DNA of 64,000 nucleotides from positions 25,624,522 through 25,688,521 of the forward strand of contig CM019715.1 in assembly GCA_009760885.1 (NCBI GenBank), read 5' to 3'. How positions within the stretch are numbered: the first letter of the stretch is position 1; every line of letters starts with the position of its first letter. Made by a program: the position numbers and the translations under genes. This document shows positions 39,201-56,500 of this stretch, in pieces. This DNA comes from Achatina immaculata. Taxonomy: Eukaryota; Mollusca; Gastropoda; Stylommatophora; Achatinidae. The notes under the pieces were generated by a model. The model made no database searches and was not told the origin of the DNA. It was given only the letters and a program-made list of their open reading frames with translations.

Positions 39201-42200
39201 GTCAACAACATTTCTAGAAAAAAAAAATTTGGAGGCATTACTTTCGGAGTGACCCTTGTAGATCAGGAATAGGCAACCTTCTTTTATTTGGGCGGCCAAA
39301 AAAAAAGACTTTCTATCTTCACATGGACCACAAACCTCACAGTCACAAAATGCACATTATATATATATATATATCTATAGTGAGAGAGAGTGGAAGCATA
39401 ATAATAGACTGAAACTGAAAACTCCAGTGCGCACAGCAGAATAGTTAAACACAAGACACAAACTCCCTGAAGACAGAGAAGAACTTACAAAAGTACCAGA
39501 CATCCACCAAACACAAACTACACACTTCCTCAAACTAACACCAGACTCAAGAACAAATTAATGAACAAATCATCAGATCCCAACACCCTAAAACTGTGTG
39601 CACTGGAGACCATAGAATCCTACCCCAAGGATGAATCCATGCATACATTGATGGGTCAGCATTCAAGGAAACAGACAATGCAGGATATAGAGTACTCATA
39701 ATGTTTCCAGACAAAACAACAAGGCACACTTCTGCTCCTTGTGGATCTCGCTGCTCCAATTATGATGCAGAGATACAGGCAATATTAGCAACCCTGGCAG
39801 CCACCACCACCACCAAATACAAAAACAGTGCCTCTCACCCAAAAAAACTTGTTATTTTCTCAGACTCCCAGTCTGCTCTCCAGACCCTTGAAAACTGGAT
39901 ACCATCAGCTGATCACATTACAACTGACATTCATTCATTTGCATGTCCCTTGCAGAACTTTGCCTCCCTAACAGCACTCCTGTAGGCCTCCACAACTGAC
40001 ATACTCAGTGCAATAAACCAGCTCGCCTCCTATGACATCAAGACCTCCCTACAGCGGATACCAGGGCACATAGATATCAGAGGAAATGAACGTGCTGACA
40101 GACTGGCAAAGAGTGGAGCCACAATGTCACAGCCCCACATCTCCACCAACATGAGAACAGCTAAATACATTATACACAACAACTGCAAGCAGCAGTGGAT
40201 GGACAGCTGGGCCAGTAATCCAACTGGAAGATTCCTATATACACACCTGCCAAAGCCTAACCCCGGAGACCACATCAACAGCTTATGTCGTAGAGACCAG
40301 TGCATAATTTTCAGGTTGAGGACAGGACACATTACCCTCAATAAGCACTTACACAGAGTGACCGCTGACCACACACCATACTGCATGAACTGCAACAGAC
40401 AAGAAGAAGAAACTGTTAAACACCATCTGCTGGACTGCATTGCATTGAAGGACCTTCGGAAGAACCTGATACCACCAAAACTCCTCAGTTACCAACATTC
40501 TGTATGGAGATGTAGAACAGCTGAAGAGGACCTGTACGTTTCATTATCTAGCACAAGGGAAAAAGAGTGAAAACTCATAAACCCAGGGATCGGAAAAGTC
40601 AAAAGTCATAGCGAGAGAGCAAGAGAGAGAGAGAGAGAGAGAGAGACAGGGAGGGAGATAAGCATAAGCATAGAGCATTCAGTTATCAAGCCAGGCCATT
40701 GTAATTCTGTAATACAAAATCAATATCATTATATTTTCCAGCCAATTTTTTTTTTTTCAGTTTTAAAAAGAAGCTACTTGGATTGGATGCAGGCCACAAA
40801 AAATGTTGCAGTAGGCCAAGTGTAAGTGTGTGTGTCTCTCTCTCTATGACACCTGAACAAGCAACTTTGCCATGAAAGACAAGCACACTAACCACCGTGC
40901 CACTAAGCAGCCCTCATGTGTATCATCACCTTCCTCATGCTGTCTCCCCACGGAAGGCTGGCTGCAATGAATCTCCAGTCTACTTTAGCTCTTGCCTTCC
41001 TAGTGCGCTCAGCCAAGCTGGTTCCCGTCCATCTCGTGATGCTGTCCACCCATCTATGTTGCTTTCATCCCCCTATTCTCTTCCCTTTGATCCTGTCTTC
41101 AAGGAGGGTCTTCAATACAGCATCGTGCCTCATGATATGCCCAAAGCATCTTAAGTGTCTTGTTTTTATGATTTTCAATATTTCTCTTCTAGCTGGTTTA
41201 GCACTTCTTTTTAATATCCTTCTATATATCCACATTTCACAGGCCTCAATTTTTCTTTTCCTCCGTCCTATCCAAATGCATGTATGTGAACATATTTTAA
41301 GAACTAAATGACCAAATATTAACACTCACATGCTATAGCTGCTGTAGCATTGTAGATTAGACTTCCATCATCTGAGTGGCCCCTGTAGAGTTCTGGTGGA
41401 CATTTCTCCTGATTTAAATAGTTCCACATCAACACTTTCATCAAAAATGGGGCGTGGATGGCACTGGTTATAACAGATACTAAAATATTATTGTTTATAA
41501 TTTGTGTGAATTATAAAAAAAAAAAAAAAAAATTAAGAATAGAAAATGAATTATCTTAAAAAACTGATTTGTTTTTCATTATTACAATGAAGGTACTGAA
41601 AAGTTAAAAAAATATATATTTATATAATGAATATCAATAAACAAACTGGTACAGTTAATCTGAAGTTGCATAACCAAGCAATTTGGGATTTATTTTAAAA
41701 TTAGACTAAATATTATACTGCGAATCTCAATTTCAAAGACAGAACCTTAGAGCGTGTACTATTCTTTCTGATCAGTATTCTAGAGACAGTAAACTGACTA
41801 GTCGACTGTGCATGAAATATACCATTTTCCCCGCATAAGTATTCTATAGACAGTAAACTGACTGGCTGGCTGTGCATAAAACATACCATTTTCCCTGCAT
41901 AAGTATTCTATAGACAGTAAACTGACTGGCTGGCTGTGCATAAAACATACCATTTTCCCTGCATAAGTATTCTATAGACAGTAAACTGACTGGCTGGCTG
42001 TGCATAAAACATGCCATTTTCCCTGCATAAGTATTCTATAGACAGTAAACTGACTGGCTGGCTGTGCATAAAACTTACCATTTTCCCTGCATAAGTATTC
42101 TATAGACAGTAAACTGACTGGCTGGCTGTGCATAAAACATACCATTTTCCCTGCATAAGTATTCTATAGACGGTAAACTGACTGGCTGGCTGTGCATAAA

Positions 42201-45200
42201 ACTTACCATTTTCCCTGCATAAGTATTCTATAGACAGTAAACTGACTGGCTGGCTGTGCATAAAACATACCATTTTCCCTGCATAAGTATTCTATAGACA
42301 GTAAACTGACTGGCTGGTTGTGCATAAAACATGCCATTTTCCCTGCATAAGTATTCTATAGACAGTAAACTGACTGGCTGGCTGTGCATAAAACTTACCA
42401 TTTTCCCTGCATAAGTATTCTATAGACAGTAAACTGACTGGCTGGCTGTGCATAAAATTTACCATTTTCCCTGCATAAGTATTCTATAGACAGTAAACTG
42501 ACTGGCTGGCTGTGCATAAAACATACCATTTTCCCTGCATAAGTATTCTATAGACAGTAAACTGACTGGCTGGCTGTGCATAAAACATACCAATTTCCCT
42601 GCATAAGTATTCTATAGACAGTAAACTGACTGGCTGGCTGTGCATAAAACTTACCATTTTCCCTGCATAAGTATTCTATAGACAGTAAACTGACTGGCTG
42701 GCTGTGCATAAAACTTACCATTTTCCCTGCATAAGTATTCTATAGACAGTAAACTGACTGGCTGGCTGTGTATGAAACATACCATTTTCCCTGCATAAGT
42801 ATTCTATAGACAGTAAACTGACTGGCTGGTTGTGCATAAAACATGCCATTTTCCCTGCATAAGTATTCTATAGACAGTAAACTGACTGGCTGGCTGTGCA
42901 TAAAACTTACCATTTTCCCTGCATAAGTATTCTATAGACAGTAAACTGACTGGCTGGCTGTGCATAAAATTTACCATTTTCCCTGCATAAGTATTCTATA
43001 GACAGTAAACTGACTGGCTGGCTGTGCATAAAACATACCATTTTCCCTGCATAAGTATTCTATAGACAGTAAACTGACTGGCTGGCTGTGCATAAAACAT
43101 ACCAATTTCCCTGCATAAGTATTCTATAGACAGTAAACTGACTGGCTGGCTGTGCATAAAACTTACCATTTTCCCTGCATAAGTATTCTATAGACAGTAA
43201 ACTGACTGGCTGGCTGTGCATAAAACTTACCATTTTCCCTGCATAAGTATTCTATAGACAGTAAACTGACTGGCTGGCTGTGTATGAAACATCTGTATTG
43301 ATGACATGACCAGCAAGGTATTCAAGGCTTCAAGGTGAAGAGCATATGTAAAGTTTCTGTGGATGTTTAAAATGTTTTTATACAAAATGATTTTTTTTTC
43401 TTTTACTCACAATAAATGTATTAGCGTTAAATTATGACTTCCTAGTTAACATAACAGTAAACTAAACTGAAAGTTACAAAATATTATCATACAAAAAAAA
43501 AAAAAAATCTTCAAATTTAGATGGTGTTTTATTCCCATAACCTGTCCCTGCATTTTAGAAACTTCTGTTTGTACAAAAGCTTTACTGCCATGTTTTCATA
43601 TATCTAGTTGTAAATATGTACTAAAGAAGCTGTGGAGAGGAACAGACAGAACTACAAAAATAAGATTTTTAAGGGCATGCATCTTTCCCATCGCAACATA
43701 TGCCTGTGAGACCTGGTCACTTAACAAAACAGCTGAGAAACACATAAATGCCTTTGAATGTAAATGCTAGAGAAGACTTCTTCAAATATCATGGACACAA
43801 ACAAGAACAAATATATCCATACTACAAGAACTTAATATTGAAGAAGGCTGGCTAGTAAAGAGGATTAAACATAGAAAACTTAAATATTCTGGACAAATTA
43901 AACATCATGAGAATTTAGAGAAGACCATCTTGGAAGGGTACATAATGGGAAAAAAGAAAGAGAGGAAGACCAAGGCGAAGATGACTGCAAGACATCGTTG
44001 ATAATCTGCAAATGGATGCATCAGCAGCAGGCCATCTTGCTCACAACCGAGAGGCCTACAGGAGTGCTATTAGGGAGGCAAAGTTTCTCAAGGGACATGC
44101 AAATGACTGACTGACTGAAATATGTACAAGCAAGCAGTTTATCATAGAAAGATGGCGTGTCCTTAAACAGAAACATGAAGATAGATGGTGGAGCATGGTT
44201 CAGTTCTACAAGAAAGACAGAGTGAGGAAAGTGGGCAAGAAACAAGAATGGCAGAAGAACATACAAAAAAAAAAAGAAAGGTAATCCTGTCATGCCGTAG
44301 AGGCACATAGGGATATGGTGTTAGTGCCCATAATTCAATATTTTGGCAAACATCTTTTTCAAGAATCACATACAAAAACAACATAACAGATTAAAAACAA
44401 AAAAAACAAAAAAAAAAAAAAACAGATGAAAAATTAAACACTTAGCTTTTTTTTTTGTATCCTCCCTGTAAAATAAGATGAGCACAAAATGTGCCCAGAC
44501 AGAGGTAGATAAGCATAAAGTGGAAGCAGGTGATTGGTTGAGAAATGATGACAAAGAGCACCATATTGTAAACAACATGGTGTTATGTTCCAGCTTGCTC
44601 ACATTACACACCTATGGCCTAAACAAAAGCCACCCAGATGGCACAGATAATAAAAGTGAGAAAACAATACTGGGGTGGGGGGTGCGTGTGGATGAAAGAA
44701 GGTTCAGCGTGAATAGAAAACACACATAGGACAAGACTGCTTAAAACACCTAGTCAAAGGAAGGTATCAAAATCTACTAGCGCTAAAGAAGAAGGACAGA
44801 AAGGGCTGGAAAATGAACCTTAAACTGTCTGTGACAAGAAATATAAAAACATATAAACAGAAGAATGCAAACAATAAAGAACAAAGGCAACAATGTCCTG
44901 GCACTCACAGAACTGGTACGTCCACAATCAGCTCCACCAGAGCATTGATAAACTCCTCTGTCTGGGATCCAATCTCTGCTGTGTCTTCTGCCCGGCTGCC
45001 TAGAAAGTCGGGACAGATACAAATTCAAAAAGTTCTCTCTTCTTCTGTCTGTGTTATGAAGTGCAGAAAGATGGGGGAAAGAAAGATTACAGTGCCAGAC
45101 AGAAAGATGAAGAAAGAAAGATTAGTGCTAGACAGAAAGATGGGGGAAGAATTATTACAGTGCCAGACAGAAAGATGAAGAAAGAAAGATTAGTGCTAGA

Positions 45201-48200
45201 CAGAAAGATGGGGGAAGAAAGATTACAGTGCCAGACAGAAAGATGAAGAAAGAAAGATTAGTGCTAGACAGAAAGATGGGGGAAGAAAGATTACAGTGCC
45301 AGACAGAAAGATGAAGAAAGAAAGATTAGTGCCAGACAGAAAGATGGGGAAAGAAAGATTACAGTGCCAGACAGACAGCACATTCATCAGAAACAGCAAA
45401 GATGACCTGGTCAACCCACTCTGGACTCAGCAGGTGAATCCCCTTATTTGTGGAAGTGAATTTCATGTGATATCTCATTTTCATTTTTTTATTCAGTGAC
45501 ATTCTATGTGCAGTGACATTCCATGCACTTCACCTAGCAGGAAATATTCTTCATATTCGGAAATTGTTTTTCCCCCAACACATTGGTATCAGGTAATAAT
45601 TTCTATGAATCTGCCAATAAGACGCCCCAGTTCCCAAAAACACTACTTGAGACGACAGATCACCACAGACTTATTAACTTATACCCTCCCCCAGCCTAGG
45701 CTCATCCTTACCTTTTCAGCCTGGGTAAATGAGTAAAGACTGATGTGTTCCCATAGATGCCGCTGTCTGCTTCTTTGGTCTGATACATAAATGTAAGAAA
45801 ACCGCTGTAGCAACTGGACTTGTCATGGGCTCCAAAAATATTAACCTTAACACTGCTATTAAGGCAGCCTGAAGGAAAGAAGAGCTGAGACCAGTCCAGA
45901 AAGCCTTGTGAAGAACTGCAGAAACTGAGATGAACAGTTGTCACCTCATATGTAAACTAACTGCAGGCCATATGAAGAGGACATAATCTTTTTTTGCTTC
46001 CTGCAAGATATCTCAAGGAATACTGGACACACACAGATGCATGGATGGACTGATGAGCAAACTCCCCCCCCACAAACACATGTAATCCAGTTTCAAGATC
46101 GTTATTACAAAACCCATGGTTTTATGCTGTCAGACAACTGAAGTTTCTAGAAATGCATTAAATCTGGGCCCATTTTTCTCATGAAGTGAAGCATCAGCTC
46201 TCATCCTCTTTACTCCCCAACACAAATATCAAGTCCCTATTTTCAGATGTGAACTAGAAGCAAATGTGGTTTTGGAAGGGAGCTGAAACATATAAAGTGA
46301 ACGGTCATTTCATTCATTCATTTCAATGTTCCTTGCAGAACTTTGCCTCCCTAACAGCACTCCTACAGCCCTCTCGGTTGTAAGCAAGATGCCCTGCTAC
46401 TGATGCATCCATTTGCAGATCATCAACAATGTCTTGCATCCATCCTCACCTTGGTCTTCCTCTCTTTCTTTTTCCCATTATTTATGTACCTTTCCAAGAC
46501 GATCTTCTCTAGATTACCGTGATGTTTAATGCATCCAAAATATTTAAGTTTTCTTTGTTTAATCCTCTTTACTAGCCAGCTTTCTTCAATATTAAGTTCT
46601 TGTAGTATGGATATATTTGTTCTTTTTTTTTTTGTGTCCATGATATTTGAAGATCTCTTCTGTAGCATTTACATTCAAAGGCATTTATGAGTTTGAACAG
46701 TCAGAAAATGGAATTTACAAAGTTTCACTGAAGCTGATGAAACTAATTAATACCATAAGCAAAAGACAAAACTATTTGGAGATGCAATGAGAGGCCAGGC
46801 TGAGGGCACTTGACAATCACAGGAAAACGTGGGAGAAAAAAAGAAGAGGATGATGATCAAGAAAAAAATATATCTCAATGGCATGACCAAGTGTCACTGG
46901 TAAAAGAAGGGCAACTGACCCGATTAGAAATACCAAAGACCATGCACAATGGTCTTTTACAATGGCACTCAGTGAATGAACTGTCAACTATGTTCTGATA
47001 GGTTCAGGAGCTGGTAGTCCTCCTGTGGTAAGACCTTTTTATATAACACAGAGAAATGCCCACCAAATACTACTATTGCATTAGGTGAGAGGTAAATCTC
47101 ACTGCGTATCTTACCATCTGATTTAGGTGGGAGGCAGTCAAACTGGTGTAACAGTAGCTCCTCGCTCAGATGTTCCACAAAATATTTACACAGGCTCCGG
47201 ATGATAAACAGAGCATTGTATGTCTGCCAAATGAAGATGTTGCTGAAAACAAGTGAGAAATAGTGATATTTAATCCTCAGTGGGGTTTAGTTGAATAAAG
47301 GTGAGCTATACTATTAAAGTACAAAGGTATAATAAAGACAGTTCCAGCATGCCATACAGTTCTAGCATGCTATATAGTTCTATCATGACATACACTTTTA
47401 CTTTGCCATACAGTTCTAGCATGCTATATAGTTCTATCATGACATACATTTTTACTTTGCCATACAGTTCTAGCATGTCATATAGTTTTAGCATGCCATA
47501 TAGTTCCAGCATGCCATACAGTTCCAGCATGCCATATAGTTCTAGTATGCCATATAGTTCTAGCATGCCATACAGTTCTAGCATGCTATATAGTTCCACC
47601 ATACCATACAGTTCTAGTATGTCATATAGTTCCAGCATGCCATACAGTTCCAGCATGCCATATAGTTCTATCATGCCATACAGTTCTCACATGCCATATA
47701 GTTCTAGCATGTCATACAGTTCTAGCATGTCATATAGTTCTAGCATGCCATATAGTTCTAGCATGCCATATAGTTCTAACATGCCATATAGTTCTTGCAT
47801 GCTAAACAGTTCTAGCATGCCATACAGTTCTAGCATGTCATATAATTCTAGCATGCCATACAGTTCTAGCATGTCATATAATTCTAGCATGCCATACAGT
47901 TCTAGCATGTCATATAATTCTAGCATGCCATACAGTTCTAGCATGCCATAAAACATCTATGGGATACAGTGTTAGTACCAATATCTTCCTTAACCTGTTT
48001 GCACACTAGAGGGTGATGTGGTCAGCATCATGCCTGACCACCTTCACCTCCAAGAGGAGCCAGGTTCTAACTTCTACAACTAAGTGACTGAGGCACCTCT
48101 GGCCAGACTTGAACAACTGACCTTGCAGTGAAAGATAATGGGCATTAACCACTACACCACCCAGACACTCCACTGTATCAATATTTGCAAAATTTGTATT

Positions 48201-51200
48201 TTAATTCACTTTTTTCCCCCACCAATTATATATTTAACTTGGGTAAGTCCCATGTATACAGCACTGATTTTTTTTTTTTTAACTTAAGCATTTCCTCTCA
48301 TTAACATACTGACAGGCTTGTGCACAATTAACAGACATGTACCTGACCCTGCAGACATCTGTTCTCTACTTCCAGGGGTCTAAAACTCACTCACAGTATA
48401 ATCAGGGGAGAGCATGACATTGCAAAAATTTACCATGGATTTGTTAAAAAAAAAAAAAAATTCATGCAGCTTCTAGAATTTTTTTTTTACTTTCAACTCC
48501 TACTGTACCATTGACTGCATAAATGAATGATATTTCAAAACAAATAAAATTTAAAGTAATTGTCAAATGGTTTTGTTGCATAGTTCTGTCCCCTCATTAA
48601 TAAAGTAATAAACAGGACCTAGATGATCTATCAAGTGTCGTGCCTACAGGCATTGGCAGTCATAACTTCCCACAACTCTGTTCTGTGTTGCCTCTATGAG
48701 ATGTTCTAGCTCCCTCTTTCCATGCCAGTCCATCCAGGATTTTCTCTCTTGGTCCATTTCAGTCTCATTTCCCCTCTAGCTTTCCTGTTGTCAAGATGTG
48801 TTCTAGTCTGTCTTTGTCATGACATGTCCTATAAATTTAGACTTGTCTTTTCCTGACTGTTGTAATTATATGTCTTCTCGAGTCAGTCCCTCATAAAATT
48901 TCTTTGTTTTATTTTCTTGATGTCCATGGTGTTCTTAATACTCTTCTAAGAAACCACATTCCCCTGGCTTCCAGATGTTGATGTATCTCTTTGGTAACTG
49001 TCCAGGCTTCACATCCATTGACCAGAAATGGCTATATGTAGCGCCCTTTTCCTTACACTCAATGACAGTGATTACCCAGATGATGCTAAGGTTCTTTTTT
49101 TAATGATGCTAAGGTTCTTTTTTTAACTTCTTCTTCTTCGTTCGCTTCTACCACCAAGATCACCCTGTGATCCTACTGAATTTACTCATGTGGCCTCCTG
49201 TGGTCCCCGAGAGATCCCCGAGAAGACCACATGAGGTTCAGCGTATCACGGGGCTTGGGCCTGTATTCTCGGTGGGTCACAGAAGCGGGATTGCGTGACA
49301 CTGTGGTTTTCATCGCACCAGTTTAATCTAGAGTTGGACTTTCTCACCGGAAAACCTCGACGTGTTTTGGATATCTGTATATCCCTGCCGGGTGAGAAGT
49401 GGTTGCCCATCTAGTCCAGAGTTGGACTTTCTCATCAGAAAACCTCAGTGTGATTAGGATACGCATATATCCCCGTCGGGTGAGAGGTGGTTGCCTATCT
49501 AGACTGGACTGGTCCAGTGTCTCCGACTTCAGTGTTTTGTGGTCATGGCTGCTACCTTTCCTAGTTGTGACCAGAATGGAGTTTTTGTCCAGAAGGACGA
49601 ATCCTCACCACTAGGAGATTTCACCCCTGGGTTAAGCCAGTTTAAGCGTATTATCCCAGTATGGGTGTGTTTAGGATGTGTTCAACCTCTAGAGTGGAGG
49701 TACCATGACATGAGTAGTCATCAAGTTTCACACCTGGGTTAAGCCGGTTTAGGCATATTTCACCAGTATGTGTGTATATTGGACGTGGCTGGCCTCTAAA
49801 GCAGAGGTGCCATGGTATGAGTAGCTCTCGTCGCAAGACTACTGGACATACCGATTAATCTTCACTTTATCCTTTCCATCACCTTTTCACAGCAGCACCG
49901 CTCGGCAACCCTAATCGCATTTTCTCCATTGGCCGGGAGGAGTTTCACCCCACGCACGGCAGATGAAGAATCTCACCAGCAGTGTCTTAGTTTAACCCCT
50001 GGGTTAAGCCTATTCAGGCAATCCGCCCGGTATGAGCGCACATAGGACATAGCTGACCTCCAGAGCAGAGGTACCATGATTTGAACAGTCCTGACCTCGA
50101 GACTACTGATTACTTCACTTAATCCTTTCTTTCACATTTTCCACGGTGGTGCCACGCGGCAACCCCAGCTGAACCTTTCTTCACTGGCCGGGAAGAGCCC
50201 CACTCCACGCACGGCAGCTGAAGAATCTTGCCAGCAGCGGCTTTTTTAACTAAGCAAACTCATCTGCTGGTCCATGGACCCACAAGTTAAGAACCACTGG
50301 TTGAAGTGATTTACTTATCATCTGAGCAAGGCAAAAACATCTGAATGAAGAATAACTGGCCTAGCATCGAGCAGTGTCGATAGTACTGGTTATAGATCTT
50401 TGCCGTATATGAATCTGGAAAGGAAAAAAAAAAGACACTGATGAAGAAAATGGATGTGGAAAGGTAACAAACATTTACTTACTCTTCACACTGCGCAGAG
50501 GCCTTAAGTTCGGAAGCCCGTATAAGGAAGTTGTGTATGAGGGATCTCAGATTTCCAGTGTGGCAGTTGTTTAGGGCAAAATTTCTGGCTATGACCTCGG
50601 TAGAGTCTTCAAGCAGCTTTGCATCAGAACTTGAAACAGAAAACAGTACATTCCTTTCACATCAGCATGAACACTATATATATATATATATATATTTGTG
50701 AATTTCATATTTTTTTAAAGATGCTTTATATATTATATGAAACAGCTTGCAGAATAACTGCTGGTTAAGACTGTAGTTGTTTACTCTTATAAACAAGCCA
50801 TACCACTTTAGCCCAGTGAATGACATATAGACTGTAGTGATCACTACCACAGTCTGAATGAAATAAGGATTGTAGTGATCCTTGTCATGGTGTGAATGAA
50901 ATAAGGATTGTAGTGATCCCTGTCATGGTGTGAATGAAATAAGGATTGTAGTGATCTCTGTCATGGTGTGAATGAAATAAGGACTGTAGTGATCCCTGTC
51001 ATGGTGTGAATGAAATAAGGATTGTAGTGATCCCTGTCATGGTGTGAATGAAATAAGGATTGTAGTGATCCCTGTCATGGTGTGAATGAAATAAGGACTG
51101 TAGTGATCCTTGTCATGGTGTGAATGAAATAAGGATTGTAGTGATCCCTATCATGGTATGAATGAAATAAAGATTGTAGTGATCCCTGTCATGATGTGAA

Positions 51201-53070
51201 TGAAATAAGGATTGTAGTGATCCCTATCATGATGTGAATGAAATAAGGACTGTAGTGATCCCTCACAAAGATATGCAAGATAAAATAAACAAGTTAACCC
51301 AGAATGCAAACAACATAGGACTAAAGATCAACGTAGGAAAGACAAAGTTAATGAAGCAAAATGTGAAGAACAGAAATGTACTCAGAGTAGATAACAAGTT
51401 AGTGGAGGAGGTCAACGAATTTGTATACCTTGGCAGCAGAGTAGTAGAAAATGGAGACAGCACAGAGGACATCAACAGCAGACTTACTAGAGCAAACCAG
51501 GCTTTTGCAATGCTACAGAATATATGGAAATCAAATAAACTAAGCATAAATATGAAAATCAGGATATTTAATGTTCTAAGTGTACTACTCTATGGAAGTG
51601 AATGCTGGAAAATCACCAAAACCATAGAAAACAAGTTGAATTCTTTCCAGACTAAATGTTTACGTAGAATTAAAAAAATATTTTGGCCAAACACCATAAG
51701 AAATAACATCTTATTGGCAGAAATGCAGATGAAACCACTGACAACAATTATTGAGGAAAGACGCTGGCGATGGTTGGGACATGTGCTCCGAATGACTGAC
51801 AACTCACTACCAAAAATAGCACTAAGATGGACACCACAGGGGAGCAGAAGTAAGGGTAGACCAAAAGAGACATGGAGAAGAACAACAGAAAGGATGTTGA
51901 GCAATAGAGGGCTCACCTGGGCAAGAGCAGAAAAAAAGGCGAAAGACAGGCATTTGTGGAAAACCCTTGCGGAAGCCCCATGTGCCCTGGGCACTTAAGG
52001 TCCAGAGAGAGAGAGTGATCCCTGTCACGGTGTGAATGAAATAAGGACTGTAGTGATCCTTGTCATGGTGTGAATGAAATAAGGATTGTAGTGATCCCTA
52101 TCATGGTATGAATGAAATAAAGATTGTAGTGATCCCTGTCATGATGTGAATGAAATAAGGATTGTAGTGATCCCTATCATGATGTGAATGAAATAAGGAT
52201 TGTAGTGATCCTTGTCATGGTGTGAATGAAATAAAGACAGTGATGATCCCTGTCACGGTATGAATGAAATAAGGACTGTAGTGATCCTTGTCATGGTGTG
52301 AATGAAATAAGGATTGTAGTGATCCTTGTCATGGTATGAATGAAATAAGGATTGTAGTGATCCTTGTCATGGTGTGAATGAAATAAGGATTGTAGTGATC
52401 CTTGTCATGGTGTGAATGAAATAAGGACTGTAGTGATCCTTGTCATGGTATGAATGAAATAAGGATTGTAGTGATCCTTGTTACTGTGTGAATGAAATAA
52501 GGACAGCGATGATCTCTGTCATGGTATGAATGAAATAAGGACTGTAGTGATCCTTGTCATGGTGTGAATGAAATAAGGATTGTATTGATCCTTGTCATGG
52601 TGTGAATGAAATAAGGACAGCGATGATCCCTGTCATGGTATGAATGAAATAAGGACTGTAGTGATCCTTGTCATGGTGTGAATGAAATAAGGACTGTAGT
52701 GATCCTTGTCATGGTGTGAATGAAATAAGGATTGTATTGATCCTTGTCATGGTGTGAATGAAATAAGGACAGCGATGATCCCTGTCACGGTATGAATGAA
52801 ATAAGGACTGTAGTGATCCTTGTCATGGTATGAATGAAACAAGGACTGTAGTGATCCCCATCATTTTCATGTTGCAGTCCTTATGTTCAGCCTTATCCAC
52901 ATAATTACCTCATAAACTAGAACTAACTACCTGTTTACTGGAATCTGGAATGAAAATGACAATAGCTGGTTCCAGAAAGGATCCATGGGATCTATGGCTT
53001 CCTGCCCAGACAGTCTTTTCAGGTACTCATTGCTGGAGAGCTCACTAAGACTGCTGCTCATGGCTCCCAT
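9575..53070 (-). CDS. DYM: Dymeclin, complete coding region in 15 exons
   Basis: Dymeclin is a peripheral protein that cycles between cytosol and Golgi and supports Golgi organisation and ER-Golgi traffic; in humans its loss causes Dyggve-Melchior-Clausen dysplasia (family knowledge). I joined 15 exons by GT/AG sites and reading phase: 52931-53070, 50483-50629, 47115-47242, 44909-44999, 43231-43356, 41330-41463, 37867-38055, 32035-32216, 30391-30516, 28959-29072, 24707-24801, 21915-22035, 18967-19149, 14414-14527 and 9575-9742. They total 2058 nt, or 685 residues plus stop, against about 669 in human. The N-terminus [18 protein letters not shown] matches the dymeclin start and keeps Gly2, the human myristoylation site. 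Strong blocks are [51 protein letters not shown] and [13 protein letters not shown]. Exons 10, 11 and 13 each have a second intact copy, and exon 5 has seeded a satellite. No non-coding 5' exon or promoter was recognised. Confidence 0.95.
9905..11246. repeat. 28-bp minisatellite in DYM intron 14, part 1
   Basis: Roughly 45 diverged units of ATGAGGATACAAGGTATAAC plus TCAGAGAC. It continues at 12587-13115 after a mariner insertion that splits it. Confidence 0.9.
11247..12586 (-). mobile_element. mariner transposon, copy A, inserted in the 28-bp array
   Basis: Inverted ends TGAGGGGTGATCAATAAG and CTTATCAATCACCCCTCA, with TA duplicated outside each end (11245-11246 and 12587-12588). Transposase fragments on the minus strand are [17 protein letters not shown] (11926-11699), [13 protein letters not shown] and [13 protein letters not shown] (11617-11363). 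These are the mariner catalytic blocks, but they lie in different frames, so the gene is dead. Confidence 0.93.
12304..12373 (-). mobile_element. 70-bp LINE 3' tail inside mariner A
   Basis: Only the last 70 bp of a LINE, with its ATAAGATATAAGAT-type tail. It is flanked by the 12-bp target duplication TAGCGAATGACT (12292-12303 and 12374-12385). The same 3' end terminates the longer copies at 35270-35770 and 53.4-53.9 kb. Confidence 0.9.
12587..13115. repeat. 28-bp minisatellite in DYM intron 14, part 2
   Basis: Same ATGAGGATACAAGGTATAAC units as 9905-11246, resuming directly after the mariner right end. Confidence 0.9.
13120..13425 (-). pseudogene. Mariner-like transposase remnant, internally deleted
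   Basis: Minus-strand reading gives [20 protein letters not shown] (helix-turn-helix-like) near 13420-13340 and [15 protein letters not shown] (transposase C-terminus) near 13290-13230. The catalytic centre between them is missing. Confidence 0.5.
13450..13680. repeat. ~20-bp minisatellite
   Basis: About eleven units of CTGTGTGGATTATACTTACT with shorter variants. Confidence 0.85.
13681..14413. other. DYM intron 14 remainder, nothing recognised
   Basis: No element or coding signal identified apart from the exon 14 donor at its right end. Confidence 0.4.
14414..14527 (-). CDS. DYM: DYM exon 14, residues 593-630
   Basis: Acceptor TCCACAG and donor CTGAAG|GTAAGG. It encodes [20 protein letters not shown] and [17 protein letters not shown], matching human ISFFSSRLLQAGAELSVE and VALPKDRLK. 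Phase 0 in and out. Confidence 0.95.
14640..14855 (+). mobile_element. SINE, mollusc-type
   Basis: B-box-like GTTTCGAATCCGGCCC, interrupted upstream by a G run and (GT)n. The body CTCTAGTGTGTGCTGACAGG and GCACTAGCACCATATCCC matches the copies at 7.3 and 20.4 kb. Confidence 0.6.
15147..15805. repeat. 42-bp minisatellite, open in several frames
   Basis: About 16 units of CTGGACAGCTATGGAATCAT plus GCTTCTCCATTTCTGTGAAATT. Because 42 is a multiple of three, one plus frame (277 codons), a second plus frame (131) and a minus frame (268 codons, repeat [14 protein letters not shown]) all stay open. There are no splice sites or homology to suggest a real protein. Confidence 0.92.
15815..15980 (-). pseudogene. 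LINE RT C-terminal remnant
   Basis: The minus strand reads [24 protein letters not shown] sequence, resembling the GHV(T/M)R ... G(K/R) tail seen in the LINE copies at 25.9 and 28.2 kb. Short and decayed. Confidence 0.4.
15985..16215. repeat. Tandem CTGAAAGTTCTCTGAGGACC units with (GT)n
   Basis: Four copies of TTCTGAAAGTTCTCTGAGGA separated by variable (TG)n stretches. Confidence 0.8.
16345..16490. repeat. (CT)n/(TCTG)n-rich microsatellite
   Basis: Low-complexity pyrimidine tract next to the duplication left breakpoint. Similar tracts fill 16870-17295 and 18526-18935. All Ser/Leu/Cys-rich ORFs in them are artefacts. Confidence 0.9.
17330..17512 (-). CDS. DYM: DYM exon 13, duplicate copy
   Basis: Second intact copy with the same protein sequence and splice sites, 1637 bp downstream, inside the tandem duplication 16454-18107/18108-19744. 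Because the exon is phase 0-0 and 183 nt, inclusion of both would add 61 residues in frame; mutually exclusive use is also possible. An assembly duplicate is not excluded. Confidence 0.6.
17719..17843. repeat. 26-bp minisatellite, first block
   Basis: Units of TTAAGTGTGTGGAGGACCAT plus CCATGC. The block recurs at 19356-19480 through the duplication and resumes at 20192-20337 beyond the MITE. Confidence 0.85.
17840..18107. mobile_element. piggyBac-type MITE, truncated duplicate
   Basis: Left 268 bp of the MITE at 19477-20191, cut by the tandem-duplication junction at 18107/18108. Confidence 0.85.
18108..19744. repeat. 1.64-kb tandem duplication, copy 2 (contains DYM exon 13)
   Basis: Head-to-tail second copy. 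Its right end runs straight into the rest of the MITE, showing that the duplication post-dates the MITE insertion. Confidence 0.9.
18967..19149 (-). CDS. DYM: DYM exon 13, upstream copy, residues 532-592
   Basis: Acceptor GTCCCCAG and donor GACACT|GTAAGT, 183 nt, phase 0 in and out. It encodes [32 protein letters not shown] and [13 protein letters not shown], matching human [17 protein letters not shown] and HPSFQDIMQNIDL. An identical exon lies at 17330-17512. Confidence 0.9.
19477..20191. mobile_element. piggyBac-type MITE with TTAA target duplication
   Basis: TTAA-CTCTTCCCGTGCG at the left and CGCACGGAAAGAG-TTAA at the right. It is inserted at a TTAA inside a 26-bp minisatellite unit, which resumes on the far side. 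No coding capacity. The family recurs at 34788-36002 and 56688-57383. The superfamily call rests on TTAA and the TIRs. Confidence 0.8.
20192..20337. repeat. 26-bp minisatellite, second block
   Basis: Same GTGTGGAGGACCATCCATGC units, separated from the first block by the MITE. Confidence 0.85.
20365..20455 (+). mobile_element. SINE 3' fragment
   Basis: TGCTGACAGGTCAAGGAGGA and ACACTAGCACCATATTCCCT match the body of the copies at 7.3 and 14.7 kb. Confidence 0.5.
20655..20748 (-). mobile_element. tRNA-like SINE head
   Basis: The minus strand has TGGCTGGATCGCTAAAGACG (A-box-like) and GGGTTCAATCCCGGG (B box) spaced as in a tRNA. There is no proper cloverleaf, so it is a SINE head or relic, not a tRNA gene. 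Confidence 0.55.
20772..21794 (-). pseudogene. Retrotransposon C-terminus: zinc knuckle plus restriction-like endonuclease
   Basis: One frame runs from 21794 to 20772 with a single TAG at 21333-21335. Before the stop are [20 protein letters not shown] and [19 protein letters not shown] (CxxC...H...C knuckle). After it are [20 protein letters not shown] and a K-rich helix, the PD...E pattern of restriction-like nucleases, then AVEVGARGF. The layout fits the C-terminus of R2/NeSL/CRE-type non-LTR elements. No RT is present, so it is a 5'-truncated copy. The exact clade is uncertain. Confidence 0.6.
21915..22035 (-). CDS. DYM: DYM exon 12, residues 491-531
   Basis: Acceptor CTACCCAG and donor GATTAT|GTAAGG. 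It encodes [19 protein letters not shown], matching human LFSLLSKKHNKVLEQATQS, then an acidic/Gln-rich linker [15 protein letters not shown] in place of the human SSNDVPLPDY. Phase out 0. Confidence 0.93.
22036..22560. other. DYM intron 11, nothing recognised
   Basis: AT-rich sequence between exon 12 and the repeat at 22565. Confidence 0.35.
22565..22880 (-). repeat. Unclassified ~330-bp interspersed repeat, copy 2
   Basis: Shares GTTGAGGCACAGC, TGGGAGTGGGTTATGGCAGT and GTCTTGGTCAGCTGTGGGTT (minus strand) with the other copies. Confidence 0.65.
23391..23592. repeat. 31-bp minisatellite
   Basis: Six units of CAAAAGGATGAACTATACTG plus AACATCTGAAA. Confidence 0.88.
23606..23862 (+). mobile_element. 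SINE, decayed
   Basis: Head GGCCTGACCGGCCAAGTAGT, then AACATGGGTACCAGGTCCC and ACCCTCTAGTGAACAAATAG, in the order seen in other SINE copies. A G/T homopolymer run interrupts it. Confidence 0.5.
24150..24380 (+). repeat. Unclassified ~330-bp repeat, copies 3 (24.2 kb) and 4 (26.3 kb)
   Basis: GCTGTGGAGATGTTGAGGCA, ATGGCAGCTATTTTTTCAGT and CCAGGCTAGACCTGC. The duplicated counterpart lies at 26270-26500. Confidence 0.65.
24707..24801 (-). CDS. DYM: DYM exon 11, downstream copy, residues 460-490
   Basis: Acceptor CACCAG and donor ATCAA|GTGAGT. It encodes [19 protein letters not shown] then [11 protein letters not shown], one of the best conserved dymeclin segments. Phase in 0, out 2. I used this copy for the model because it is nearest exon 12, but the two are equivalent. 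Confidence 0.88.
24890..25395 (+). pseudogene. LINE RT C-terminal fragment
   Basis: Reads [35 protein letters not shown], then [22 protein letters not shown] and [12 protein letters not shown], the usual LINE C-terminal order, with stops. It ends in a GAAGAA-rich tail. Duplicate at 26996-27495. Confidence 0.75.
25631..26013. repeat. Rearranged duplication, segment B
   Basis: Matches B' at 27937-28320. The minus strand carries a LINE remnant ([19 protein letters not shown] in the B' copy). At 26013 it joins A' directly. Confidence 0.88.
26014..27575. repeat. Rearranged duplication, segment A' (contains DYM exon 11 duplicate)
   Basis: Copy of 23868-25470, including the LINE fragment (26996-27495). 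It ends AGTAGCTTTAATATA and then jumps to segment C' sequence. Confidence 0.9.
26826..26920 (-). CDS. DYM: DYM exon 11, duplicate copy
   Basis: Same coding sequence, acceptor and donor as 24707-24801, offset 2119 bp. It is 95 nt long, phase 0 in and 2 out, so including both exon 11 copies in one transcript would break the frame. Only one can be used productively. It is upstream in transcript order, next to the exon 10 duplicate. Confidence 0.6.
27576..27940. repeat. Rearranged duplication, segment C' (contains DYM exon 10 duplicate)
   Basis: 365-bp copy of 28836-29200 with only a few substitutions. It joins B' through the shared AAAGAAGA. Confidence 0.92.
27699..27812 (-). CDS. DYM: DYM exon 10, duplicate copy
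   Basis: Same 114-nt exon with identical coding content, acceptor and donor, inside the duplicated block 27576-27940. As a phase 0-0 exon it could be spliced in alongside exon 10, giving a 38-residue in-frame repeat, or used instead of it. Whether it is expressed cannot be told from sequence. Assembly duplication is the alternative. Confidence 0.6.
27937..28320. repeat. Rearranged duplication, segment B'
   Basis: Copy of 25631-26013, followed by unique sequence (28321-28560) that presumably continued B in the ancestral order. Confidence 0.88.
28565..28805 (+). mobile_element. SINE, tRNA-headed
   Basis: GGCCTGGTTGGCCATCTAGT and the B box GGGTTGAAGTCCC, then AAAATGGGTACCAGAGAAA and ATGACACTGACCACATCACA. 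Confidence 0.65.
28836..29200. repeat. Rearranged duplication, segment C (contains DYM exon 10)
   Basis: Presumed original of C'. Flanked left by a C-run and right by LINE sequence. Confidence 0.9.
28959..29072 (-). CDS. DYM: DYM exon 10, upstream copy, residues 422-459
   Basis: Acceptor ATTTCAG and donor ATGAGG|GTAAGA, 114 nt, phase 0 in and out. It encodes [19 protein letters not shown] and [14 protein letters not shown] second copy with the same protein sequence lies 1260 bp downstream at 27699-27812. Either copy alone, or both together, keeps the frame. Confidence 0.9.
29208..29495 (+). pseudogene. LINE 3' end, decayed
   Basis: Same family as 53.4 kb: [24 protein letters not shown] reading and the 3' end GGGACAGGAAGGATGTAAGA. 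Many substitutions and an A-run. Confidence 0.75.
29496..29859. other. DYM intron 9 segment, nothing recognised
   Basis: No repeat or coding homology noticed. Confidence 0.35.
29860..30310. repeat. 33-bp minisatellite
   Basis: About 13 units of GAATCTTTATTAGGATGACT plus GAAACAAGAACAT. The [10 protein letters not shown] repeat ORFs on the minus strand are artefacts of it. Confidence 0.88.
30391..30516 (-). CDS. DYM: DYM exon 9, residues 380-421
   Basis: Acceptor CCACCAG and donor GAAATT|GTAAGT. It encodes [20 protein letters not shown] and [20 protein letters not shown], near-identical in pattern to human PILEILYHVEERNSHHVYM. Phase 0 in and out. Confidence 0.96.
30568..30870 (-). pseudogene. 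LINE RT C-terminus with (GAT)n tail
   Basis: The minus strand encodes [36 protein letters not shown] and [12 protein letters not shown] before a stop, then (GAT)n at 30568-30598. The pattern is that of the terminal part of a non-LTR polymerase. 5'-truncated. Confidence 0.85.
30871..32034. other. DYM intron 8, AT-rich, nothing recognised
   Basis: No element identified apart from (ATG)n near 31990. Confidence 0.35.
32035..32216 (-). CDS. DYM: DYM exon 8, residues 319-379
   Basis: Acceptor ATTGCAG and donor CAGTTG|GTGAGT. It encodes [20 protein letters not shown] and [19 protein letters not shown], matching human DQATLLLYTLLHQN and RTYMLARTDMENL. Phase out 0. Confidence 0.96.
32271..32530 (+). 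mobile_element. SINE, tRNA-headed
   Basis: A box GATGTAGTGGTTAGTGCACT, B box TGGTTCAATTC, body AAAATGGGTACCTGG and 3' end CATGCAAATGCTATGGAC. The same family as the clean copy at 59 kb. Possible 7-bp duplication ATGATAT. Confidence 0.8.
32640..32905. repeat. ~40-bp minisatellite
   Basis: Six units of CTTCCTGTTTTAAAACTTTC plus CTATAAAAAGTAGAATAAAG. Confidence 0.88.
32906..33539. other. DYM intron 7 segment, nothing recognised
   Basis: AT-rich. Confidence 0.35.
33540..34010. repeat. ~30-bp minisatellite
   Basis: About 15 diverged units of GAAAATATAACAAATATTGG plus TGACAATAAT. The Tyr/Ile/Cys-rich minus-strand ORFs are artefacts. Confidence 0.85.
34011..34787. other. DYM intron 7 segment, nothing recognised
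   Basis: No element or gene identified. Confidence 0.35.
34788..36002. mobile_element. piggyBac-type MITE carrying a LINE insertion
   Basis: Starts TTAA-CTCTTTCCCTGCC and ends near GGCCAGGGAAATAG-TTCAA, where the right TTAA has decayed. Removing the LINE at 35270-35770 leaves a sequence colinear with the MITE at 56688-57383. Confidence 0.8.
35270..35770 (-). mobile_element. LINE 3' end inserted in the MITE
   Basis: 501 bp flanked by the 11-bp target duplication CTAAAAACATC (35259-35269 and 35771-35781). It encodes an intact C-terminal RT piece: [73 protein letters not shown] and [16 protein letters not shown], then a GATATAAGATATAAGAT tail. The 5' end is truncated. Confidence 0.93.
36058..36228 (+). 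mobile_element. SINE, tRNA-headed, short
   Basis: A-box-like CATGGTCTCAGGGTTAGATG and B box AAGTTCAAATCCCACC, then GGTAGTGGTACTGACCATCC. Confidence 0.55.
36229..37489. other. DYM intron 7 segment, nothing recognised
   Basis: Short ORFs at 36273-36494 and 37051-37284 show no recognisable homology. Confidence 0.35.
37490..37665. repeat. ~42-bp minisatellite, 4 units
   Basis: Diverged units around GAAGACAGGATAAATG and GCTTAAGGTTAAATGTT-like text. Confidence 0.7.
37867..38055 (-). CDS. DYM: DYM exon 7, residues 256-318
   Basis: Acceptor TTTCCAG and donor CACAAG|GTAAGT. It encodes [27 protein letters not shown] and [10 protein letters not shown], all clear dymeclin blocks (human LWTVFTLG, LANQSLLLLLVLANL, NPYRQAIMSF). 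Phase out 1. Confidence 0.96.
38406..39258 (-). mobile_element. Mariner-like element, internally deleted
   Basis: TA-TGAGGGTTGCTCCAAAAGTA at the left and CTTTCGGAGTGACCCTTG-TA at the right. The minus strand keeps the transposase N-terminal helix-turn-helix ([20 protein letters not shown], 39120-38815) and the C-terminus ([15 protein letters not shown], 38707-38525). The catalytic middle is gone, so this copy is non-autonomous. Confidence 0.85.
39632..40570 (+). pseudogene. Non-LTR retrotransposon RNase H and zinc-knuckle C-terminus
   Basis: One frame is open from 39632 to the TGA near 40570 except for a TAG at 39983-39985. RNase H residues are visible: [10 protein letters not shown] (Asp), YDAEIQAI (Glu), [10 protein letters not shown] (Asp) and [12 protein letters not shown] (Asp). 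[19 protein letters not shown] follows as a CxxC...H...C knuckle. Upstream sequence (39.4-39.6 kb) is frameshifted. The arrangement fits RNase H-bearing LINE clades (I/Jockey/Loa type) as a 5'-truncated copy; the (AG)n tail near 40625 fits its 3' end. Confidence 0.85.
40838..40920 (-). mobile_element. SINE head fragment
   Basis: The minus strand reads GCTGCTTAGTGGCACGGTGG and TTAGTGTGCTTGTCTTTCAT, a decayed tRNA-like head. Confidence 0.4.
40920..41325 (-). pseudogene. LINE RT C-terminal fragment
   Basis: Minus-strand [32 protein letters not shown] and [12 protein letters not shown], followed after a frameshift by [10 protein letters not shown] and [19 protein letters not shown]. It lies immediately downstream of DYM exon 6, inside intron 6. 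Confidence 0.8.
41330..41463 (-). CDS. DYM: DYM exon 6, residues 211-255
   Basis: Acceptor AACCAG and donor GCAT|GTGAGT. It encodes [20 protein letters not shown] and [16 protein letters not shown], aligned with human KLVKTLLYNFIRQEK and QSDGGGLLYGLASGVA. Phase in 2, out 1. Confidence 0.93.
41777..43312 (-). repeat. 64-bp satellite derived from the DYM exon 5 end plus splice donor
   Basis: 24 head-to-tail units in perfect 64-bp register (starts at 41777 + 64k, no indels). On the minus strand a unit is the last 62 nt of exon 5, from ATGTTTCATACACAG to ATGCAGGGAAAATG, plus GT. The exon-proximal unit (43249-43312) is the exon itself. Donor-equivalent hexamers in the 23 other units are GTATGT (9), GTAAGT (8, one being the real donor), GCATGT (3), GTAAAT (2) and GTATAT (1). 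Units 9-16 (42289-42800) and 17-24 (42801-43312) carry the same variant order, an 8-unit 512-bp higher-order repeat. The outermost unit (41777) is the most diverged. Confidence 0.95.
43231..43356 (-). CDS. DYM: DYM exon 5, residues 169-210; its 3' half seeds a satellite
   Basis: Acceptor CCACAG and donor AAAATG|GTAAGT at 43229-43230. It encodes [29 protein letters not shown] and VYRILMQGK, aligned with human DITYEISVEAISTMVVFLS and KYLMRG. The last 62 nt, from the Met codon of IQMF to the exon end, are repeated with the donor GT in the adjoining 64-bp array. The chosen donor is the one nearest the exon and gives the correct phase (2) into exon 6. Confidence 0.93.
43357..43624. other. DYM intron 4, 3' part with exon 5 acceptor
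   Basis: AT-rich with A/T homopolymers. No element seen. Confidence 0.4.
43625..44115 (+). pseudogene. LINE RT C-terminal copy
   Basis: Same family as 62-63 kb: [40 protein letters not shown] and a decayed [17 protein letters not shown], then [17 protein letters not shown] and an ACTGACTGACTG tail. Several stops. Confidence 0.85.
44116..44908. other. DYM intron 4 segment, mostly unremarkable
   Basis: Contains a SINE 3' fragment (minus) at 44282-44335 (TGTCATGCCGTAGAGGCACA) and poly-A tracts. Nothing else recognised. Confidence 0.4.
44909..44999 (-). CDS. DYM: DYM exon 4, residues 139-168
   Basis: Acceptor TTTCTAG and donor GTTCT|GTGAGT. It encodes [20 protein letters not shown], matching human DLLEELLCCLMQLITDIPLL in position and character. 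Phase in 1, out 2, which joins exon 3 directly to exon 4. Confidence 0.92.
45062..45378. repeat. 34-bp minisatellite in 68-bp dimers
   Basis: Alternating CAGACAGAAAGATGAAGAAA and CAGACAGAAAGATGGGGGAA half-units, about nine in all. Lies just outside the exon 4 acceptor, in intron 3. Confidence 0.88.
45379..46309. other. DYM intron 3 segment, nothing firmly recognised
   Basis: Includes an exon-like open stretch at about 45710-45790 (minus) that I rejected as an exon. Confidence 0.35.
46310..46690 (-). pseudogene. LINE RT C-terminal copy
   Basis: Minus-strand [40 protein letters not shown] and the 3' end with TTGTAGGGAG-type sequence and an AATGAATG tail. Same family as 43.6 and 62 kb. Confidence 0.85.
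46691..47114. other. DYM intron 3 segment, nothing recognised
   Basis: No element seen. The exon 3 donor is at its right end. Confidence 0.35.
47115..47242 (-). CDS. DYM: DYM exon 3, residues 96-138
   Basis: Acceptor TTTTCAG and donor GATG|GTAAGA. It encodes [20 protein letters not shown], very close to human HIFIWQTHNALFIICCLLK, and ends with [11 protein letters not shown]. Phase out 1. Confidence 0.95.
47340..47950. repeat. 18-bp minisatellite
   Basis: About 34 units of CATACAGTTCTAGCATGC. The 18-bp period keeps a 216-codon plus frame (SSSMPY repeats) and minus frames (ELYGML repeats) open. No evidence for a gene. Confidence 0.93.
47960..48178 (-). mobile_element. SINE, tRNA-headed
   Basis: The minus strand starts with a tRNA-like head (GGTGTAGTGGTTAATGCCCA A box, GTTGTTCAAGTCTGG B box) and continues with the common body to CACCCTCTAGTGTGCAAACA. 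Confidence 0.65.
48179..48639. other. DYM intron 2 segment, nothing recognised
   Basis: AT-rich. Confidence 0.35.
48640..49050 (-). pseudogene. LINE RT C-terminal fragment, heavily decayed
   Basis: Minus-strand [36 protein letters not shown] and then [13 protein letters not shown], with several stops. It is a different family from the 62-kb LINE. Confidence 0.7.
49140..50270. repeat. GC-richer composite repeat, unclassified
   Basis: Two-to-three-fold internal repetition: CCCCTGGGTTAAGCC recurs near 49624, 49731 and 49995 (with variants), and GGCAACCC...CCACGCACGGCAG recurs near 49907-49965 and 50158-50221. GAGTTGGACTTTCTCA occurs twice at 49332 and 49422. No coding homology. It could be the 5' UTR of a LINE or part of a non-autonomous element. 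Confidence 0.5.
50483..50629 (-). CDS. DYM: DYM exon 2, residues 47-95
   Basis: Acceptor TTTCAAG and donor GAAGA|GTAAGT. It encodes [17 protein letters not shown], then [13 protein letters not shown] and [10 protein letters not shown], the counterpart of human TGNLGALI/ELKLSAECQ. Phase in 2, phase out 2. Confidence 0.95.
50850..52858. repeat. 38-bp minisatellite in DYM intron 1
   Basis: About 33 units of ATGAAATAAGGATTGTAGTG plus ATCCCTGTCATGGTGTGA, split by the LINE at 51264-52013. Confidence 0.93.
51264..52013 (+). mobile_element. LINE 3' end inserted in the 38-bp array
   Basis: 750 bp flanked by AGTGATCCCT (51254-51263 and 52014-52023). It carries an uninterrupted C-terminal RT frame to the stop at 51998: [95 protein letters not shown] and [18 protein letters not shown]. 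It ends in (AG)n. The intact frame suggests a young insertion. Confidence 0.93.
52931..53070 (-). CDS. DYM: DYM exon 1 (coding), residues 1-46
   Basis: Starts at the ATG of [10 protein letters not shown] and ends AACAG|GTAG, phase 2. The frame stays open upstream, but this methionine aligns with the conserved dymeclin N-terminus. It contains NEYLKRLSG and [12 protein letters not shown], dymeclin signatures. Joining to exon 2 gives PVNSSDAKLL, colinear with human without gaps. Confidence 0.93.
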
Positions 53071-53399
53071 TTTGCAGATGGTAGGCTTTTTTGGAAATAG
53101 TTCACAAGATGATATTGTCAAAAGGTCACAGTTCAGGGTAAAGTCTGTTTGTATCCACAATTTACATGTACATCCTACTCAGGAACCTGGATAATGTATA
53201 AACAAGGATGGCATTAGTACAAATGTTTATCCTCTTGGATGGGTTCGAAATTTTGGTTCTGAAAGCTAAGCTTCAGAGAAACTCTACAGCAAGGAGGCAG
53301 TAGATCCCAAAATAAGTGTTTATTTTTTTTTTTATGTTACACTATAGAATGATGGCACCTTCAATAATCTTGAGACCATATGGCATTCAAAAGTTATAA

Positions 53400-53865
53400 G
53401 CACAAAAACCAAGTTAAGACTATTCAATTCAAATGTAATATCCACCATCATTTATGCATGTGAAAGCTGGAAAACAACTAAAGAAATAGACAAGAAATTA
53501 GACTCTTTTGAAAACAAATGCCTAAGGAAAATACTCGGCATCAAGTGGAACGAATTCAAGAACAATGCAGAGATAAGACAGATGACTGAACAACAACCAA
53601 TCTCATGAGTGATCAGGAAAAGGAGATGGACATACGTTGGTCATGTGATGAGAAGGAACAATCAGAGGATCCCCAAACAAGCTATCAAGTGGAACACAAC
53701 AGGCCAAAGAAAAAGAGGTCAACCATGTGAAACTCTGAAGATGACACTGTTAAGAGAGGCCAGTTCCCTTGATGAGATCGAAAAACTCGCAGAAGACAGG
53801 AAATCTTGGCGAACTATCATCTATGTGACGTTTAGCGGCACGGGAAGGATGTAAGATGTAAGACA
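53400..53865 (+). pseudogene. LINE 3' end (same family as 35.3 kb), two copies by duplication
   Basis: Reads [34 protein letters not shown], then a stop, then [20 protein letters not shown] and GQRKRGQPCETLKMTLLREA, and ends GGATGTAAGATGTAAGA. The second copy is at 54943-55408. The 5' breakpoint (AAGTTATAAGCACAAAAACC) is almost the same as in the 35.3-kb insertion. Confidence 0.88.
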
Positions 53866-54061
53866 AAACGATGGCACAGCAATTTACAACCCCCCCCCAA
53901 AATAACCTTATCTGCCCACCAAACTGTACTGTAATGGGTAAATCATAAAATATCTAGTCTATTTTTAAAGATCAAATCTTACAGACCTTTCCTTTGTGGA
54001 AAATAAAACTGCTGGAAATCAGTATAATGATAAAAGGCATAAAAAAAAAAAAAAAAGGTAA

Positions 54062-54345
54062 AACCTCTGTTTCCATGGCACAAAGACACACTGAGGATAC
54101 AGCATTAGGCTTGTATTTTCACGACCTTCGGCACATGAAAGTGTGTTGTGGTCAGTATCACGCCTGGCCGCATTTACCTTCCCAGATGTCTCTGGTACCC
54201 GTTTTTAGAGGTTGTGGGGACCCTGGGGCCTTTCTGGGCGTGGTAGTACCAGAAAAAAATCCCTACTGCTGGGACTTGAACCTGGGTACCACCAGATTAG
54301 TAGGCCGAGCAATTAACCGCTCAGCCAACCAGGCTGCTGATAAGA
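54062..54345 (-). mobile_element. SINE, tRNA-headed (duplicated at 55605-55888)
   Basis: The minus strand starts GCCTGGTTGGCTGAGCGGTT (A box) with B box AGGTTCAAGTCCC, then AACGGGTACCAGAGACATC and a body shared with the copy at 28.6 kb. Confidence 0.8.
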
Positions 54346-54690
54346 GTTACAGCAAATAATCCAGGCTTTGAGCACTGCCATCATGCTTTGCAAGTCTATC
54401 TGAATGAGCGAATTTTAAAATATCAAAATGTTTCTGTTACAAAGAAAGCATGGGCAGCATGATGACAAAATATGAACGCTGGTTTATAATTGGGAAAAGA
54501 TTGGTTTGAATCACAGTATGGTCCAGGTTTGTCTGTTTTTTTAAAAAAATATCACTGGCAAAATGAAAAGACTCAGTCTGCACACTCTGCTGTCACTGCT
54601 CTAGTTTTGTTCTTGTACCATCTCCCTGTAACTGCGAGCTGGTTATCTTCACAGTGTTGAGGCACAGCATAATATCGGCATGGGAGTGGG

Positions 54691-56200: not shown

Positions 56201-56500
56201 TGCTGTGGAGGTGTTGAGGCACAGCATAATATCGGCATGGGAGTGGGTTATGGCAGGTATTTTTTCAGTCCCGAAGTGCAGTTAAAAAGCAGGGGGTGTG
56301 CAATGCTTCTTTAGCAGACTCCACCACCATAAGGACTATGGTGATCCATGCCCATTAGCCAGGCTAGGCCCGTTATTGGGATTACCAACAGAGAAGTGGG
56401 ACAGGGTCTTGGTCAACTATGGTTCACTAACCCTGACACTAGGATATCAGCTATGAGCCACTGACTGCCTAATCAGAGAGCGCATTCACCTCCGACTGCT
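56170..56500 (+). repeat. Unclassified ~330-bp repeat, copy 5
   Basis: GGTGTTGAGGCACAGCATAA, TTATGGCAGGTATTTTTTCA, TTTAGCAGACTCCACCACCA and GGGTCTTGGTCAACTATGG, in the same order as the other copies. Confidence 0.7.

Follow-up and report, generated by a model that had tools for sequence, protein, structure and literature searches.

How the end of a coding exon and its splice donor come to be repeated along the intron that follows them, and whether such repeats serve the host gene, are the questions raised by a 64,000-nt window of the gastropod Achatina immaculata (GenBank assembly GCA_009760885.1, contig CM019715.1, positions 25,624,522 to 25,688,521 of the forward strand). The dymeclin (DYM) gene lies complete in the window, on the minus strand, running from an ATG at 53070 to a stop at 9575. 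Most of intron 5 of this gene is taken up by a 64-bp tandem array, each unit of which corresponds to the end of exon 5 and the adjoining donor GT. As judged from its sequence, the array is likely to be a minisatellite of the kind called “mirages” in amphioxus, seeded across the exon edge, grown in register, and carried as a neutral passenger.

Tandem Repeats Finder (TRF) reports a single array at 41774–43292, with a period of 64, 23.7 copies, 96% matches, 0% indels, and a score of 2814, the highest of all 77 rows for the window. Unit 1 (43229–43292; this and all other units are read on the minus strand) consists of the last 62 nt of exon 5 and the donor GT, is in frame and conserved in DYM homologues, and represents the template of the array. 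Units 2–23 (41821–43228) are 22 full 64-bp copies of exon end and donor, which lie inside intron 5, contain no indel, and differ from unit 1 by 0–4 nt. Unit 24 (41757–41820) is a diverged copy that is outermost and oldest-looking. It aligns with the exon end and donor at 52 of 65 columns, with 12 mismatches and 1 gap (counted manually from the alignment), and its relic donor reads TA/GTACAC versus TG/GTAAGT. Thus, the 23 further copies in perfect register described in the initial annotation resolve into 22 full units that are in register and a 24th that is a diverged relic. Together, the intronic units occupy 1,474 of the 1,767 nt of intron 5, and the units of the array vary at nine columns.

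A longer repeat is superimposed on the 64-bp period. Units 1–8 (42781–43292), which include the coding exon end, are followed by units 9–16 (42269–42780) with 0 mismatches between them, forming a perfect 512-bp duplication in which unit 9 is the sole intronic unit identical to the exon unit. At a shift of 512 bp, the exact match extends 518 nt downstream of the array edge, 6 nt past the block, and 0 nt upstream. The motif ATGTTT is common to the exon edge and to many unit starts, and it bounds the 512-bp block. Microhomology at the founding duplication was considered and is not demonstrable, as relic unit 24 continues with GTACAC.

The DYM exons were located by homology using a human DYM sequence as query. 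Fifteen coding exons with consistent phases give an open frame of 685 aa, into which a single copy of each of three twice-occurring exons was entered. The Pfam Dymeclin family (PF09742) covers residues 1–656 of 685 with E = 1.8e-204, in agreement with the initial assignment of the gene as DYM and of the exon as its fifth; the related Hid1 model gives a second, weak match (E = 5.2e-07). A homologue search returned 1,795 hits among 8,000 scored candidates, the best 120 of which were listed and 51 of these 120 aligned. Among the matches listed, the best is a hypothetical protein of the land snail Bradybaena similaris, with 89% identity over 100% of the query; named proteins of Physella (85%), Biomphalaria (82% over 96%), and Plakobranchus (78%) come next, with an unnamed one at 88% between. 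This ranking points to a gastropod, most likely a stylommatophoran.

Exon 5 (43231–43356, minus strand) is 126 nt long with phase 2 at both ends, and its assignment is based on DYM homology, the acceptor ccacag, the donor gtaagt, and phases that fit exons 4 and 6. The real 5′ splice site, GTAAGT at 43225–43230 (minus strand), opens intron 5 (43230–41464, minus strand), the acceptor AG of which is at 41464–41465. Exon 6 (41330–41463, minus strand), placed by homology and phases, opens at 41463 with the T that completes a conserved cysteine codon, TG/T. This cysteine is retained in 47 of the 51 aligned homologues, the exceptions being tryptophan in P0036, serine in P0043, threonine in P0046, and a gap in P0047. 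Three of the 51 homologue models, those of Solemya (P0036), Octopus bimaculoides (P0039), and Lottia (P0047), leave the alignment no more than a few residues from the junction, and these departures hint that an intron at this position is old.

The exon end aligns with DYM from other molluscs, annelids, brachiopods, and vertebrates, and 49 of 51 rows are ungapped in the last 21 residues. These 21 residues are identical in Bradybaena P0001 and in none of the other aligned homologues. Because of this alignment and identity, the exon is, on protein-level comparison, the source of the array, as the initial annotation had proposed. The coding exon end also belongs to the array as an active member. 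Of the 22 full intronic units, unit 9 alone carries the exon’s CATACAC, whereas the other 21 read TATGCAC; if coding, this change would replace H with Y and T with A. Among the 51 homologues, the first of these positions is occupied by Q (37), H (9), T (2), A (1), V (1), or a gap (1), and never by Y. Since Y is absent, the exon state appears to be the older one at this residue, and unit 9 would therefore have come from the exon, which suggests that the 512-bp block was copied from the exon end into the array.

A search of public proteins with a 63-aa translation of the repeat gave no candidate, so that no other species was seen to carry the array; this says little, as such stretches are rarely predicted as proteins. 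Beyond the array and the duplications of exons 10, 11, and 13 described below, the only exon fragments found in introns are chance-like matches of 12–16 nt among those listed, at most four per exon (22 of the 26 matches for exon 5 and one of the five for exon 3 stand outside this set).

The initial annotation counted 22 additional donors in the intron. All 22 positions exist, and the hexamers are 7 GTAAGT and 9 GTATGT, as stated there, together with 2 GTAAAT, 1 GTATAT, and 3 GCATGT, so that the set comprises 19 GT and 3 GC donors, the latter after units 7, 15, and 20. The same exonic context had been ascribed to each of them; this is the case for 16 of the 22, which agree with the real donor for 52 nt or more upstream, whereas the remaining six match over just 2, 2, 9, 29, 47, and 47 nt before the first mismatch. 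As units 1–8, exon end included, recur perfectly as units 9–16, donor 9 (42718) shares an identical stretch of 62 nt upstream and 456 nt downstream with the real donor, 518 nt in all. Donors were scored with a matrix that ignores position +2 and thus overrates the three GC sites. The real donor scores 5.82, exceeding 14 of 16 other DYM donor entries (doubled exons counted twice), and seven array donors score equal to it. Columns 60, 64, 2, and 3, which lie at the donor (columns 60–64 and 1–4 of the units in 41821–43292), are among the nine variable columns. Three of the four donor-column changes (GT to GC, +5 G to A, and −3 A to T) would weaken the donor.

Translation of all 23 donors separates the first from the rest. 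Only the first leaves an open frame into exon 6; from each of the 22 others, the same stop (...GKW*) is reached two codons on, 60–1404 nt before the exon 5–6 junction, in keeping with the immediate stop that had been anticipated for distal donor use.

The position of the array at an exon edge is less singular when the locus as a whole is considered. Thirty-nine tandem arrays with a period of at least 10 cover 18% of the window, 30 of them within the DYM gene; to reach this count, TRF rows with a period below 10 and overlapping rows were dropped or merged by hand, among them a TC-rich period-56 row at 18541–18927. If the founding units of the 30 gene arrays were placed at random, the expected number crossing an exon boundary would be 0.96, and that crossing a donor boundary 0.45. 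Because of these expectations, one boundary array is at about the chance level for such a locus, and its placement needs no special cause. What is unusual about the 64-bp array is its size and survival. A small TRF row at 21924–21953 sits within exon 12 and repeats a coding motif.

The closest known systems are the amphioxus mirages, which are described as minisatellite-like tandem duplications that span an exon–intron boundary, many with splice signals (PMC3087553). Their units measure 10–72 bp in Adh3 and 150–160 bp in globins; BflGb9 has a duplicated 3′ boundary of exon 2, with AG/GT signals in many but not all repeats. For the globin mirages, reverse transcription PCR suggests that regular splicing is undisturbed, and cluster edges escape homogenization (PMC3087553). 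Lancelet PGBD5, Adh, and troponin C (TnC) are cited for the same in a second report (PMC3902484). Similar to the mirages, the DYM unit spans an exon–intron boundary (62 nt of exon 5 and GT), its repeats carry splice signals (19 GT and 3 GC at the 22 further positions), and the array is homogeneous inside (0–4 nt in units 2–23) with a diverged edge (12 mismatches and a gap over 65 columns in unit 24). The exclusion of cluster boundaries reported for amphioxus is the reason that the diverged outer unit fits the favored reading. Further traits of mirages are undisturbed regular splicing and a length that is unstable between alleles or cells; of the 23 DYM donors, only the first leaves an open frame. 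By its boundary-spanning unit, its splice signals, and its diverged edge, the DYM array belongs to the mirage kind. The main differences are that the host is a gastropod rather than a cephalochordate, that 22 full extra units are present versus 6 and 3 in two BflGb6 haplotypes and one duplicate in BflGb9, and that a recent eight-unit block duplication takes in the exon end.

Other systems share parts of this arrangement. In human duplicated genes, internal tandem repeats (minisatellites) on exon–intron boundaries can alter splicing (PMC2812944); there, the repeats are either retained or removed by splicing and may give rise to new introns, whereas in DYM the frame allows the first donor only and no new intron is seen. 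Introns can be gained when exonic sequence containing proto-splice sites is duplicated in tandem (PMC2891723, PMC4974935). In DYM, too, part of an exon with a splice motif was duplicated in tandem, but the donor that was copied already existed, and there is no sign of a new intron. The intronic variable number tandem repeat of ABCA7 is a tandem array that affects splicing (PMC5954066); it resembles the DYM array in being intronic and tandem, although derivation from an exon end is not known for ABCA7. The statement in the initial annotation that an array made of an exon end with a live splice site was not known to be described does not hold, as amphioxus mirages (PMC3087553, PMC3902484) and human boundary repeats (PMC2812944) are in print.

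A sequence of events can be proposed that accounts for the array as a boundary minisatellite. As its anatomy shows, a 64-bp tandem duplication across the exon 5/intron 5 boundary made an intronic repeat unit out of 62 coding nucleotides and the GT of the donor. The array would then have grown in register by unequal exchange or slippage. In the latest visible step, eight units were copied as one 512-bp block, exon end included, with identity between the copies complete and the direction presumably from exon to array. The outermost unit, apparently having escaped homogenization, has decayed to a relic. The first donor would be used and the others discarded as part of the intron; any splicing that leaked to a distal donor would lead to the immediate stop and to nonsense-mediated decay, such that leaked transcripts would be noncoding and short-lived. 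Selection on the exon would preserve the master copy, from which the intronic copies could be refreshed. The array is, on this evidence, probably a neutral passenger, and nothing in the sequence itself calls for a function. The feeding of nonsense-mediated decay, the titration of U1 snRNP, and the slowed splicing put forward in the initial annotation are conjectural.

Several observations weigh against this account. At the second variant residue, the homologues are mixed (T in 7, A in 2, and others) and unit 24 has GCA like the array; because both T and A occur and unit 24 shares GCA, this residue gives no direction of copying. Eight equal-score donors are found in the array region (1.46 kb, the real one included) versus 11 in the gene’s other 42 kb, which would seem an unusual load for a passenger. 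Variable columns are also denser at the donor, with 4 of 9 donor columns versus 5 of 55 elsewhere (Fisher p = 0.018), in a post hoc test on array copies that share ancestry and are not independent. This variability could reflect selection on decoy strength and is a weak hint that the array acts as a functional decoy, with tandem donors competing with the real one and copy number setting, like a rheostat, the share of DYM pre-mRNA sent to nonsense-mediated decay. Such a role is nevertheless quite improbable. It would draw on the seven further donors with the real donor’s score, one identical over 518 nt, and on the shared stop of 22 of 22 distal donors, the distance of which from the junction is beyond the 50–55-nt rule of vertebrate nonsense-mediated decay. 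Where identical donors are duplicated, splicing in vitro often favors the copy closer to the 3′ splice site. A literature search on competing identical donors yielded no direct match. In contrast, amphioxus genes of the same layout are reported to splice correctly (PMC3087553, PMC3902484), and all three array stretches that were folded are less stable than the shuffle mean (z = 0.76, 2.29, and 1.42), which gives no sign of a structured switch. Nor does any Rfam family attain its gathering score within the window. That the exon end and the array evolve together as a single unit, the exon being a selected master that repeatedly reseeds the array and identical competing donors tuning DYM output by copy number in a natural population, is very unlikely.

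A misassembly that inflated a short or absent array, with the perfect 512-bp repeat of units 1–8 perhaps false, is unlikely as an explanation of the whole. Near-perfect duplicated blocks can stem from false duplication, and the window contains five, of 0.37–1.6 kb, each with 0–9 mismatches and 0–29 gap columns. Three pairs of tandem, minus-strand exon copies lie in such blocks, which measure 0.37–1.6 kb: exon 10 (29072–28959 and 27812–27699; block with 2 mismatches and 0 gap columns), exon 11 (26920–26826 and 24801–24707; 9 mismatches and 18 gap columns), and exon 13 (19149–18967 and 17512–17330; 2 mismatches and 29 gap columns), the exon itself being identical in each pair. Exon 11 is 95 nt long, so that inclusion of both its copies would shift the frame. 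These exon duplications are either false assembly duplications or very recent real ones. However, an artefact made from a single exon end would not produce nine variable columns among the units or a diverged outermost copy; these variants argue that the array itself is real, and at most its copy number, above all the perfect 512-bp block, is in doubt. The opposite history, in which a satellite from another part of the genome entered the gene and was co-opted as exon end and donor, has next to no probability. The exon end aligns across animal DYM proteins, as described above, and exact matches to a 24-nt core of the unit number 22 in the window, all of them inside the array. Capture of an independent satellite is rejected at the protein level on account of the conserved exon end, which equally speaks against a satellite that predates its likeness to exon 5, a possibility raised in the initial annotation.

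Additional repeats were observed in the window. Related 38-bp arrays are located at 50816–51263 and 52014–52857, and related 28-bp arrays at 9903–11247 and 12591–13120. Dispersed copies at 43620–44118, 46305–46694, and 62385–63373 are 86–93% alike, occur in both orientations, and probably represent fragments of a mobile element. A near-perfect tandem duplication, with 3 mismatches over 1,545 columns and 16 gap columns, is formed by 53147–54692 and 54690–56249, immediately upstream of the DYM start codon.

With the DYM array, boundary minisatellites, described so far in amphioxus and in duplicated human genes, are also seen in a gastropod, and to our knowledge there is no earlier mollusc case. 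A literature search over titles and the beginnings of abstracts yielded no mollusc boundary minisatellite, which is weak evidence of absence, and the accessible part of a paper on gastropod introns (PMC7931591) mentions no such array. For annotation, the array serves as a warning, as gene finders may call false alternative donors in DYM intron 5. For the biology of splicing, it presents a natural experiment on a long-standing question, namely how a spliceosome would choose the first among eight donors of equal score, one of them identical to the real donor over 518 nt and locally indistinguishable from it.

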